A stretch of 64,000 nucleotides of DNA from Pontibacter sp. G13 (GTDB taxonomy: Bacteria; Bacteroidota; Bacteroidia; J057). The notes under the pieces were generated by a model. It saw nothing but the letters and a program-made list of their open reading frames with translations, had not been told where the DNA came from and made no database searches. Location: positions 7,130,001 to 7,194,000 of the forward strand of contig NZ_CP134696.1 in the NCBI RefSeq assembly GCF_031851795.1, given 5' to 3'. The translations under genes were made by a program, and so were the position numbers. Every line of letters begins with the position of its first letter. Positions within the stretch are counted from its first letter, which is position 1. Shown piece after piece: positions 779 to 4,131 of the stretch.

Positions 779-809
779 AACGGGGACTTCCTCTCGGATA
801 GTCCCCGTT
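779..809. terminator. Hairpin between convergent genes
   Basis: A perfect 10-bp stem (AACGGGGACT with AGTCCCCGTT) and an 11-base loop sit between the stop codons of two convergent genes. On the minus strand it is followed by TTTTG, so it best suits the DUF4407 gene, but it may serve both. Confidence 0.6.
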
Positions 810-832: not shown

Positions 833-2008
833 TTAGGCTTCGGCAGGCGTGTTCTGAGCCGCTCGAGCTTTGGCCATTTCGTTCTTTCTCCACTCATCGA
901 TGGCAGCTCCCGCGATGTCGGCTTGAGCATCGGCAATCTGCTTCATCAGGGCGTCATTGGCGCGAATTTCCGCTTCCAGCCGTTGGCGGTTCCGCTCCAC
1001 GGCTAATTTGAGATTGGTGTTGACCTCCTCATTTGCTGTGGAGATCCGCTCCATTTCGGATACATGGGTCACATGCTTGATGCGCTCCACTCGATCGTCG
1101 TATGGCCCTCTTTCCGTCATCATTTTGAAGAGAATCGGGGCAATCTCGATGAATATAAACATCGCAGTAATGAGCCATTTGGCAATTTTGAGGGTCGGAT
1201 AGGTATCTGTCAATTTGGAGAATGCCTCCAGTTTGGCCATCAATCCATCATATTGGGCGGCAATGTTGTCGATATTGGCCACCTCCTCATCTCGACTTTG
1301 CTTCAGGCGTTCGATATTCGCCTCTACCTCTTCGATTTTCTTTTCCTGCTTGAGTTTAAAATCCTCGTATTCTTGCTCCGCCAAGGCATACTGCTGCTTT
1401 TTTTCCTCATAGATTTTTCCCGCACCGGGACGTCCACTGGCTGAATTTCCTTCTGCCTCTTGGATCATCTCCGCATATCGTTGCTTACGGATGAGGTCAT
1501 AGGCTTGAACTTCCTGATTGAGTTCCACGACCCGAACTTCCAGCTCGGCGATTTGGCCATAGTTGACCTCGATTTCGGATCTTGCATCGGCCCTTTTCTG
1601 CTGCTTTAGCGTCTCGATTTCCATATCGATTTCCTTTTGGAAAAGCCTCAATTCCAAGGGAGTTGCAATGACGAATCCCAGAAGTAGGGCCATGGCCAGT
1701 CTCGGGAAGGCATTCTTCCATTCATCCCACGTGATCTTGGTGGTACCATCTCCTTTTCCGGTGGAGGAAACAATGTATCGGTCCAGATTGAAGATCATCA
1801 ATCCCCAGAATATCCCGAACCCTACCGCCACGCTTGGATCATCGAATGCCGTAAAACATGCATATCCGCCTGCTAGACCAGCCATGATGGCGGTAAACAG
1901 AATTGTACCACCAATGCCGAAATATTTGGCATGATCGGTGGGGCAATCTTTGAGTATTTCGGTGTTGGCTCCCGCGCAGAACCAAAAGAAGGATTGTATT
2001 TTTTTCAT
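833..2008 (-). CDS. DUF4407 membrane protein with central coiled coil
   Basis: The protein has 391 residues and resembles the DUF4407 family, whose function is unknown. Three hydrophobic segments lie in the first 140 residues; the second carries the family-typical F-N-L-D-R-Y motif after a Trp-Gly-Leu. A long Lys/Glu/Gln-rich coiled coil (about residues 150-280) follows, then a fourth membrane segment (about 300-325) and a charged tail. The ATG at 2008 is chosen because it begins with MKKIQSFFWF, immediately before the first conserved region; upstream codons overlap the previous gene. Only one base separates this ATG from the preceding stop (TGA-C-ATG), so it is translationally coupled as the last gene of a three-gene operon. 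Confidence 0.85.
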   Translation of the reverse strand: MKKIQSFFWFCAGANTEILKDCPTDHAKYFGIGGTILFTAIMAGLAGGYACFTAFDDPSVAVGFGIFWGLMIFNLDRYIVSSTGKGDGTTKITWDEWKNAFPRLAMALLLGFVIATPLELRLFQKEIDMEIETLKQQKRADARSEIEVNYGQIAELEVRVVELNQEVQAYDLIRKQRYAEMIQEAEGNSASGRPGAGKIYEEKKQQYALAEQEYEDFKLKQEKKIEEVEANIERLKQSRDEEVANIDNIAAQYDGLMAKLEAFSKLTDTYPTLKIAKWLITAMFIFIEIAPILFKMMTERGPYDDRVERIKHVTHVSEMERISTANEEVNTNLKLAVERNRQRLEAEIRANDALMKQIADAQADIAGAAIDEWRKNEMAKARAAQNTPAEA

Positions 2009-2009
2009 G

Positions 2010-3320
2010 TCATCGGTGGTTATCAGGTGAATGATCAAGCCATTTCTTAGGATCGGCAACTTGACGAAACTCCAAGGGTGGCCGCTCGTCGGGTGTTTTG
2101 AACAGTAGGGACAAAGGCCAAAAGGCACGTACTAGGTTTCTCCAACCTCCACTGGATTGGACACCACCTCCCATCTCTGGAAGCTCCACGAGCTGGATAG
2201 GAATGGGCGTGGAATTGGGCATCTCGAACGTTGGAATCCAATTTGGGAGTTCGATCTGTTGCCAATTCATGTCAGGAGGTTTAGGCATGGGAATGTCCGG
2301 AAGCTTGGCGATGGAAAAATCTGGCGTGGGAACCTGAATCTTCGGAACCGCTATCGGCCTAATCTCCGGCATATTCGCAAGGATGACCTCCCTTGGTATC
2401 TCGGCTTCATGGGTTCGGATCAGAATTCGTTCCCGGTGTTCCTTGACAGCCCCCTGCGCGACCAACGTGAGGGCCGTATCTTCCTGAATGACCCACGTTT
2501 TTTGACCCGTCGATTCCACTTCCCCCCAAGGTTGAATCTCCAGCTTGAAAGCATCTTGTACCTGCCAAGTGACAGTCACCAACTCCCCTTTTGTAACCCA
2601 ATTAGCGGAAACCTGAAAAAGGATATTGGGCGTTGGAAGTGGATCTATATGCACGGTCCGCCTCACGATTCTTTCCCCAAATTGGGCCGTCAATACAAAG
2701 GTTTGGGATTGCTGGAAGACCAACGATCTTTTCCCTTGCTGCTCAACTTTTCCAAAGGATGGCTGAATGTCCACAGAATCTGCTTCTAGGGCGTTCCATA
2801 CCATCTGGAAGGGTTCGCCTTGAATGCCCATCTGCTGGGAAATGGAAAATTGGACTTCCTTGGTTTTTCCTTCATTGCCGGGCTCGAACGGTGTGGAGTG
2901 AATCCAGCGATTTTGGAGAAATTGCCGGTAGGTCCGGACCTGTTGGAACTTTGTCAGCTGAATCCAAGGGGTGACCTCCCACATCATCCCCTCATGCCAA
3001 TTTTCAGCTCCGATCCACACCTCTCGATGGTCCAATTCTAAGACCAATTGGCCTGTTGGTGGATTTTGGGTAGGGAGAACCACGCTGATTTCGATTCCTG
3101 CTTCAACCGCTTTCTCCCATTGCTCGTGGGAAATCGTGCCTTCAAGATCCAGAGAGCTTACCAAAAGTGAAACGGCTATTCCATGATGCGCTCGATCAAT
3201 CAGAAGATCCAGAATGGGACGGTGGTCCAATTGGGGAAGGGACCACTGAATGCTCCATTTGGCAGTTTCTACAATGCTTTCAAGCCACTCAAAACCAGAT
3301 TGATGAGGATGTAAAATCAT
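2010..3320 (-). CDS. PLD-like (HKD-lacking) protein with two Ig-like repeats
   Basis: The protein has 436 residues, no signal peptide and no membrane segment, so it is probably cytosolic. Residues 1-110 follow the outline of a phospholipase-D-like half domain: a helix, a hydrophobic V-S-L-L-V strand, then I-G-A-E-N-W at 103-108, where active members have xGSxNW. In the HxKx4D motif Asp97 is kept, but the His and Lys positions are Gly90 and Leu92, so it should be catalytically dead. Two similar repeats of about 75 residues follow (around 160-310), each with V-x-W and I-Q-P motifs, like Ig/PKD-type beta sandwiches. A Pro-rich stretch (about 320-395) ends the protein. It is the middle gene of the operon. 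Function unknown; the PLD resemblance is remote. Confidence 0.7.
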   Translation of the reverse strand: MILHPHQSGFEWLESIVETAKWSIQWSLPQLDHRPILDLLIDRAHHGIAVSLLVSSLDLEGTISHEQWEKAVEAGIEISVVLPTQNPPTGQLVLELDHREVWIGAENWHEGMMWEVTPWIQLTKFQQVRTYRQFLQNRWIHSTPFEPGNEGKTKEVQFSISQQMGIQGEPFQMVWNALEADSVDIQPSFGKVEQQGKRSLVFQQSQTFVLTAQFGERIVRRTVHIDPLPTPNILFQVSANWVTKGELVTVTWQVQDAFKLEIQPWGEVESTGQKTWVIQEDTALTLVAQGAVKEHRERILIRTHEAEIPREVILANMPEIRPIAVPKIQVPTPDFSIAKLPDIPMPKPPDMNWQQIELPNWIPTFEMPNSTPIPIQLVELPEMGGGVQSSGGWRNLVRAFWPLSLLFKTPDERPPLEFRQVADPKKWLDHSPDNHR

Positions 3321-3324
3321 AGGA

Positions 3325-4131
3325 TTATCGATTAGTGGTTGCTACCAAAAAATAAATTCCGATCAACATCACGGATAGAAAGTGGACGATGGGTTTTTCC
3401 AGCAATAGCCCAACGGTACTTGTGCAGATAGACATGATGGCGATCAATAGCCCTGTCCAGATTAGGTGGCTTCTAGATGATTTGTGTTCCATCTGAATGG
3501 CCTCTGGCAACGCTGATTCGTTGCTCATTTTCACTGGATCTGGGACAAATTCCGTAGACCTTCCCATTTGTGGGAGTGCCTCTGTTTTGTCCAAGGTGAA
3601 CCGCTCCCAATCCGTCAGGTCCATCTGGCAGAATAGCTCCCACTGGAAGGGGACCCACGATGCGGGTGATAGATCGACCGGCGGAGACAAGTCCCACGTC
3701 TGGGCAATATGTTGAGGCTCATATTGAACATGACTGGCGGTTCCATGAAGTTGTGCCGACACCTGTTTGAGTGAAATGATCTGATTGTCCCCCCATAGGA
3801 GCGGAATCTCATATCTCATGCAAGCATCAGCCAGAATCCGGGTGATCGCCAACCCATCCCAGGCAATGATGATGGGGTTGAAATTGAATATGATTTCTCT
3901 CAGTTCTGTCAATGCGGAGAATGGTCTCCTCCATTTGGGGGATTCGACTGGGTCAGCGACTTGATAGAATCCTTGGTTTACAGGATACCCGCCCGGAGCA
4001 TACAAGGTCCAGCCTATATCAGATAGGGTAGGAACTTGGTAGAATTGCTCCCGACTTTCAGAGAAATAGGGGGTTGGGCCCGCCGAGCACAAATGAAGGC
4101 TCAACACGGGGATGGAAAAAACATGAGCCAT
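3325..4131 (-). CDS. Tail-anchored membrane protein, DnaQ-exonuclease-like N-terminus (degenerate)
   Basis: The protein has 268 residues and is the first gene of the operon; its stop lies four bases before the next start. Residues 1-150 follow the order of secondary structure of DEDD (DnaQ-type) exonucleases. There is a first strand V-L-S-L-H-L ending in a Gly, an I-G-W-T-L-Y strand, a helix before I-I-I-A-W-D-G (where active enzymes have VAHNxxFD), and a helix with I-L-A-D-A-C-x-R. The acidic D-x-E residues of the first strand are Ser and His, so catalysis is not expected. Two hydrophobic segments (about 222-245 and 248-266) at the C-terminus would anchor it in the inner membrane. No named family is recognised; the fold call is an inference. 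Confidence 0.65.
   Translation of the reverse strand: MAHVFSIPVLSLHLCSAGPTPYFSESREQFYQVPTLSDIGWTLYAPGGYPVNQGFYQVADPVESPKWRRPFSALTELREIIFNFNPIIIAWDGLAITRILADACMRYEIPLLWGDNQIISLKQVSAQLHGTASHVQYEPQHIAQTWDLSPPVDLSPASWVPFQWELFCQMDLTDWERFTLDKTEALPQMGRSTEFVPDPVKMSNESALPEAIQMEHKSSRSHLIWTGLLIAIMSICTSTVGLLLEKPIVHFLSVMLIGIYFLVATTNR

Follow-up and report, generated by a model that had tools for sequence, protein, structure and literature searches.

TerY-P triads (TerY-P/STK_OB), in which a vWA, a PP2C and a Ser/Thr kinase gene are combined, have been described as antiphage systems or as defence-related phosphorylation switches (PMC11090510, PMC7699616), and KKP is a kinase-kinase-phosphatase module of prophages (PMC11341870). 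The operon studied here, located in a window of 64,000 nucleotides (the whole stretch of DNA that was analysed) from Pontibacter sp. G13, shares with TerY-P a soluble partner that is modular and has a C-terminal part rich in beta structure, and its nearest DUF4407-Ig relatives are found in operons of the vWA-PP2C-kinase type. However, none of its three genes encodes a vWA protein, a PP2C or a Ser/Thr kinase, PADLOC gave no match, and DUF4407 and Ig repeats are present instead. Similarly, four related loci (L061, L063, L067 and L171) resemble KKP in carrying PP2C followed by two kinases, but they add DUF4407 and Ig repeats, as well as vWA in L061, L063 and L171, while the window has no kinase part at all. 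Two families of nucleases are also relevant for comparison. The head of gene B appears to have a fold similar to that of PLD/NucT nucleases, including DrmC of DISARM, but it lacks the His and Lys of the HKD motif and is joined in one protein to Ig repeats and to a tail linked with DUF4407; and the predicted strand-helix order of the N-terminus of gene A is compatible with the RNase H-like fold of DEDD/DnaQ exonucleases, from which it differs in lacking sequence or profile similarity. As for DUF4407 itself (PF14362), it is rarely mentioned in the literature searched, despite being found above the cut-off in 121 of the 396 Bacteroidota genomes sampled (around one third). Most DUF4407 genes are solitary, so the family must have other roles; gene C differs from these in bearing a tail typical of members with a kinase or PLD partner. 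The combination of an adapter and DUF4407 in a membrane module is apparently undescribed so far.

The operon consists of three tightly packed ORFs in the minus strand; 4 bases separate A from B, and 1 base separates B from C. The layout proposed in the preliminary description agreed with the coordinates, the ORFs and the codon usage. The features are as follows:

779-809, minus strand: terminator hairpin closing the operon (-21.6 kcal/mol, z -5.03), followed by a T-rich stretch
833-2008, minus strand: gene C, ORF of 391 aa from the ATG at 2008, DUF4407 (PF14362)
836-1117, minus strand: predicted cytosolic C-terminal tail of gene C, candidate docking site for gene B (profile match)
1175-1636, minus strand: long helical (coiled-coil-like) segment of gene C between TM3 and TM4, predicted to be periplasmic from topology and charge bias
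2010-3320, minus strand: gene B, ORF of 436 aa, a putative soluble adapter with a PLD-like head, Ig-like repeats and a tail
2013-2408, minus strand: proline-rich tail of gene B, which aligns with the tails of kinase-Ig and PLD-Ig proteins preceding DUF4407 genes
2409-2852, minus strand: two Ig-like beta-sandwich repeats of gene B (AlphaFold strands in residues 157-304, mostly pLDDT 55-86)
2886-3302, minus strand: putative decayed PLD-like (NucT-type) head of gene B (PLDc_2, alignment to intact heads, shuffle test)
3325-4131, minus strand: gene A, ORF of 268 aa with coding-like codon usage, an orphan with a C-terminal membrane hairpin
3334-3456, minus strand: predicted two-helix membrane hairpin of gene A, residues 226-266 (hydropathy; model helices 219-244 and 247-266)
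3742-4107, minus strand: N-terminal alpha/beta region of gene A, around residues 9-130 (single-sequence AlphaFold and Foldseek, low confidence)
4406-4385: predicted terminator-like hairpin of the tRNA-Arg located ahead of the operon

The codon-usage score was positive in the reading frame of A, B and C, and lower in the remaining five frames. This, together with the hairpin that closes the operon and the tRNA-Arg with its own terminator-like hairpin before it, indicates a genuine operon with boundaries of its own. The presence of a genomic island at the tRNA-Arg was considered and discarded: the 3' end of the tRNA is not repeated in the window or in the 19 kb to its left, there is no jump in GC content, and no sign of an att site was seen at this tRNA.

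Gene C clearly belongs to PF14362 over its full length (E 4.8e-84; 282.6 bits versus a curated cut-off of 31.3), as had been proposed. Four TM segments were predicted in 96 of 111 DUF4407 members, with around 170 residues separating TM3 from TM4. In the window protein three segments passed the stricter threshold; the second, FGIFWGLMIFNL, fell below it. The N-terminus and the loop between TM2 and TM3 have a net positive charge, so that, following the positive-inside rule, both of them and the C-terminus would be cytosolic and the long helical segment would face the periplasm; we infer the sidedness of DUF4407 on this basis. A profile of the C-terminal tail, built from DUF4407s with a partner, gave 71.5 bits (E 3e-22) for the window protein, which had been held out, versus 26 bits for the next best unpartnered member. 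When the profile was trained on kinase-type members, the window protein and three members of the L017 clade scored 64-72 bits, with unpartnered members at 30 or below. The DUF4407s of the Zn-ribbon clade and of L085 also scored low with the tail profile. Judging from these profiles, DUF4407s whose adapter has a kinase or an intact PLD head have this tail in common, which would be compatible with gene B docking there but is not proof of it. In phylogenetic trees the window protein clustered with those of L062 and L064 (SH-aLRT 91, and 87 in a second tree), and this group adjoins the Bacteroidales kinase-operon clade.

With respect to gene B, no TM segment was predicted, in line with the cytosolic location assigned to it in the preliminary description. 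A PLD-like head and Ig-like repeats had also been proposed; the repeats were borne out, and the head more weakly so. The similarity of the head to PLDc_2 (E 1e-3) is below the Pfam cut-off, but a profile of eleven PLD proteins gave it 14.6 bits, versus a maximum of 4.6 among shuffled sequences (n=2000), so the similarity can be regarded as weak but real, and a PLD-like fold as probable. For comparison, the intact relatives in L017 (genome G012) and L133 (Runella limosa) match PLDc_2 with E values around 1e-23. Alignment of the window motif, GQLVLELDHREVWIGAENW, with these intact heads (HNKFCVIDYKKVITGSFNW in L017) revealed that the HxK(x)4D pattern is broken: H-x-K is replaced by G-x-L, while the Asp and the G.xNW part are retained. 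The loss of the His and Lys residues indicates that the head is apparently catalytically dead. Residues 157-304 matched Ig tandems in Foldseek (E around 1e-6), and Ig repeats dominated the list of structural neighbours of this protein. The AlphaFold model, built from three sequences, was usable for the Ig repeats and poor for the head end and the tail.

The conservation of B and C as a pair was evident in related bacteria. Gene B, used as the sole query, matched seven other genomes of the family, each match lying directly upstream of a DUF4407 gene that was also a hit in a separate, independent search. The arrangement found in the window, an Ig-repeat protein with a tail encoded directly upstream of DUF4407 in the same strand, was present in 20 of 121 collected DUF4407 ORFs, window included, a proportion that cannot be taken as a frequency since the loci were gathered partly through DUF4407 and gene B. 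These ORFs were pooled from all the searches, with that of the window added by hand after the overlap filter had dropped its long ORF. A second pair, formed by a B-like protein with four Ig repeats and DUF4407, was located in the same genome around C1:4860800-4863600. The complete A+B+C set was found in this genome only, and gene A was not next to any other B+C-type pair among the loci examined. Thus, of the three-gene linkage that had been put forward, the B+C part stands and that of gene A, for which no homologue was detected, does not. The existence of B+C as a conserved adapter and DUF4407 module is well supported, and the window operon is a lineage-specific, divergent form of it with an unexplained third gene.

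The relatives with Ig repeats and tail retain both of these parts, while the head differs:

Ser/Thr kinase head: L061, L063, L067 (Bacteroidales), L066, L062 (Polaribacter), L171 (G463)
Intact PLD head: L017, L133
PLD head without HKD residues: window, L085 (Marivirga)
Zn-ribbon head: G001, G003-G007

Residues K56, D155 and D173 were invariant across five kinase heads. Operons with the order vWA-PP2C-kinase-DUF4407 were found in L061, L062, L066 and L171; L062 and L171 also contain a separate, intact-looking PLD gene that matches DrmC (around 2e-11 in both cases), and the L171 kinase matches PADLOC STK_OB (1.6e-56). In the phylum sample, DUF4407 was next to the triad only in G463, among 17 genomes with STK_OB hits. 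A general linkage between DUF4407 and TerY-P was discarded on these grounds, given that in the other 16 genomes there was no adjacent DUF4407; TerY-P does not generally include DUF4407, and the link concerns a subset. In the same sample, DUF4407 was near a PLD match in only one of 13 neighbourhoods, again that of G463. In Marivirga aurantiaca, the PLD-Ig protein and DUF4407 are encoded inside a contractile injection locus that also has genes for sheath, tube and AAA proteins (L085, 2-16760).

The preliminary description had presented gene A as a protein with a DnaQ-exonuclease-like N-terminus and a C-terminal membrane anchor. The anchor was confirmed, with two TM helices predicted in residues 226-266. 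In contrast, the DnaQ/DEDD fold found no support. Neither Pfam nor NCBIfam gave a match; a comparison by hhalign with three DnaQ-like proteins encoded in this genome gave a probability of 0.2%, in what is a weak test with a small profile; and DnaQ-type structures were absent among the 50 Foldseek hits listed. The single-sequence AlphaFold model (pLDDT 42) has the order E-E-E-E-E-H-E-H at its N-terminus, and its structural neighbours were RNase H-like folds (integrases, RuvC) with a best E value of 0.014, none of them significant, so this region is possibly RNase H-like at best. No homologue was detectable in the 396 Bacteroidota genomes, 13 genomes of the family, relatives, plasmids, phages or IMG/VR. 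Gene A is therefore a lineage-specific orphan. The idea of two decayed enzymes was thus correct for gene B, where the HKD His and Lys are replaced, and unproven for the DnaQ part of gene A. The finding as a whole is real, but as an adapter and DUF4407 module with exchangeable heads and not as a pair of dead nucleases.

With these data, the reading towards which we lean, by a small degree, is that the three genes specify a membrane signalling module particular to this lineage, in which soluble gene B, with its apparently non-catalytic head, would sit on DUF4407. DUF4407 would be placed in the inner membrane through four TM helices, with the long helical segment in the periplasm and the tail in the cytosol, and gene B, as a soluble adapter, would use its Ig repeats and its proline-rich tail to dock there. 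In the relatives, this dock would bear a Ser/Thr kinase, a PLD (intact or decayed) or a zinc ribbon, and the kinase forms may act together with PP2C and vWA genes in phosphorylation switches of the TerY-P kind. Since its head seems to be a catalytically dead PLD fold, gene B is probably a binding or sensing part, reporting to or through DUF4407, perhaps in envelope stress or phage defence; gene A would be an addition specific to this lineage, anchored in the membrane through its hairpin. A membrane-tied complex, as was originally suggested, is plausible. One point against this reading is that no kinase, phosphatase or vWA gene adjoins the window operon; others are the restriction of the TerY-P link to a subset, the many solitary DUF4407 genes, the low tail scores of the Zn-ribbon clade and L085, the lack of an att-site sign at the tRNA and the orphan gene A.

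It could be argued that the operon is the worn-down remnant of a PLD-DUF4407 effector pair that used to be active, gene A lying beside it by chance, given that the HKD residues are gone, gene A is an orphan and the operon is absent from the 12 other genomes of the family. We regard this as rather unlikely: the three frames are intact with coding-like codon use, the Ig repeats, the gene B tail and the DUF4407 docking tail are all conserved, and the Marivirga protein in L085 has also lost the HKD residues at the same position in an intact operon, so that the dead head seems to be retained. That same locus, where the pair lies among sheath, tube and AAA genes, and the Deinococcus Ig-repeat kinases that adjoin tail and VgrG-like genes, would fit a structural role, in which DUF4407 and Ig-repeat proteins build a scaffold in the membrane or an anchor resembling a baseplate, e.g. 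for contractile injection systems; but the surroundings of the window operon showed no genes of an injection system, and contexts with kinase, PP2C and vWA are commoner, making this the least probable of the explanations considered. A complex of A, B and C in which two dead nucleases, DnaQ-like and PLD-like, would bind nucleic acid at the membrane, a version of the original proposal, is favoured by the tight packing of the operon, the RNase H-like hint in gene A and the PLD-like gene B. Without support for DnaQ, and with gene A not conserved with B+C anywhere, such a complex is quite doubtful, although less so than the scaffold. For the signalling module, the TerY-P-like operon link, the swappable heads and the predicted docking tail make DUF4407 a testable membrane signalling part.

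Copies of DUF4407 were also found in phages. With gene C as query, full-length DUF4407 was detected in 15 phage records, all of them Prevotella Lak megaphages (E around 1e-57), and a 673-kb viral contig encodes it as well. The loci noted for these megaphage records and the contig are:

L249, 7977-9233: DUF4407
L250, 7971-9248: DUF4407
L247, 7932-9293: DUF4407

The Lak proteins nest in the kinase-operon clade, as sisters of that of Prevotellaceae L061 (SH-aLRT 99, within a group of 100). They retain the membrane and helical parts, while the tail profile gave less than 3 bits versus 105 for the held-out L061, meaning that these copies from giant gut phages are devoid of the predicted docking tail. 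A search of the 673-kb contig and of two Lak genomes, run with no positive control, revealed no kinase-Ig partner. The position of tail-less Lak DUF4407s within the kinase-operon clade suggests that phages may interact with the module. This leads to a speculative proposal, to which we assign a low probability, i.e. that DUF4407-Ig modules serve as antiphage signalling systems coupled to the envelope and provided with swappable heads, the Lak protein being a captured, tail-less decoy and the window operon a version with dead sensor or guard heads. In a different, 75-kb viral contig (L248, 8007-9155), the neighbours of DUF4407 are a lysozyme-like gene and genes for small membrane proteins, an arrangement reminiscent of a lysis cassette.

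Other neighbourhoods of DUF4407 were recorded during the survey. In Bacteroidales, it follows CheD/CheB-like and histidine-kinase-like genes (L068, 2545-3897; L071, 7956-9395; L081, 7929-9197), and in G029 it is close to a patatin-like phospholipase and a peptidoglycan-binding-like protein in one strand (L053, 3350-9060). It adjoins a second DUF4407-like gene in conserved clusters of four to five genes (L055, 6016-11748, and L052, L186 and L189). NYN-like genes precede the pair formed by Zn-ribbon-Ig and DUF4407 in G003, G004 and G006, and in the Rhodococcus plasmid pLW2 NYN, DUF4407, PP2C and FHA genes lie in a row (L251, 5127-10680).
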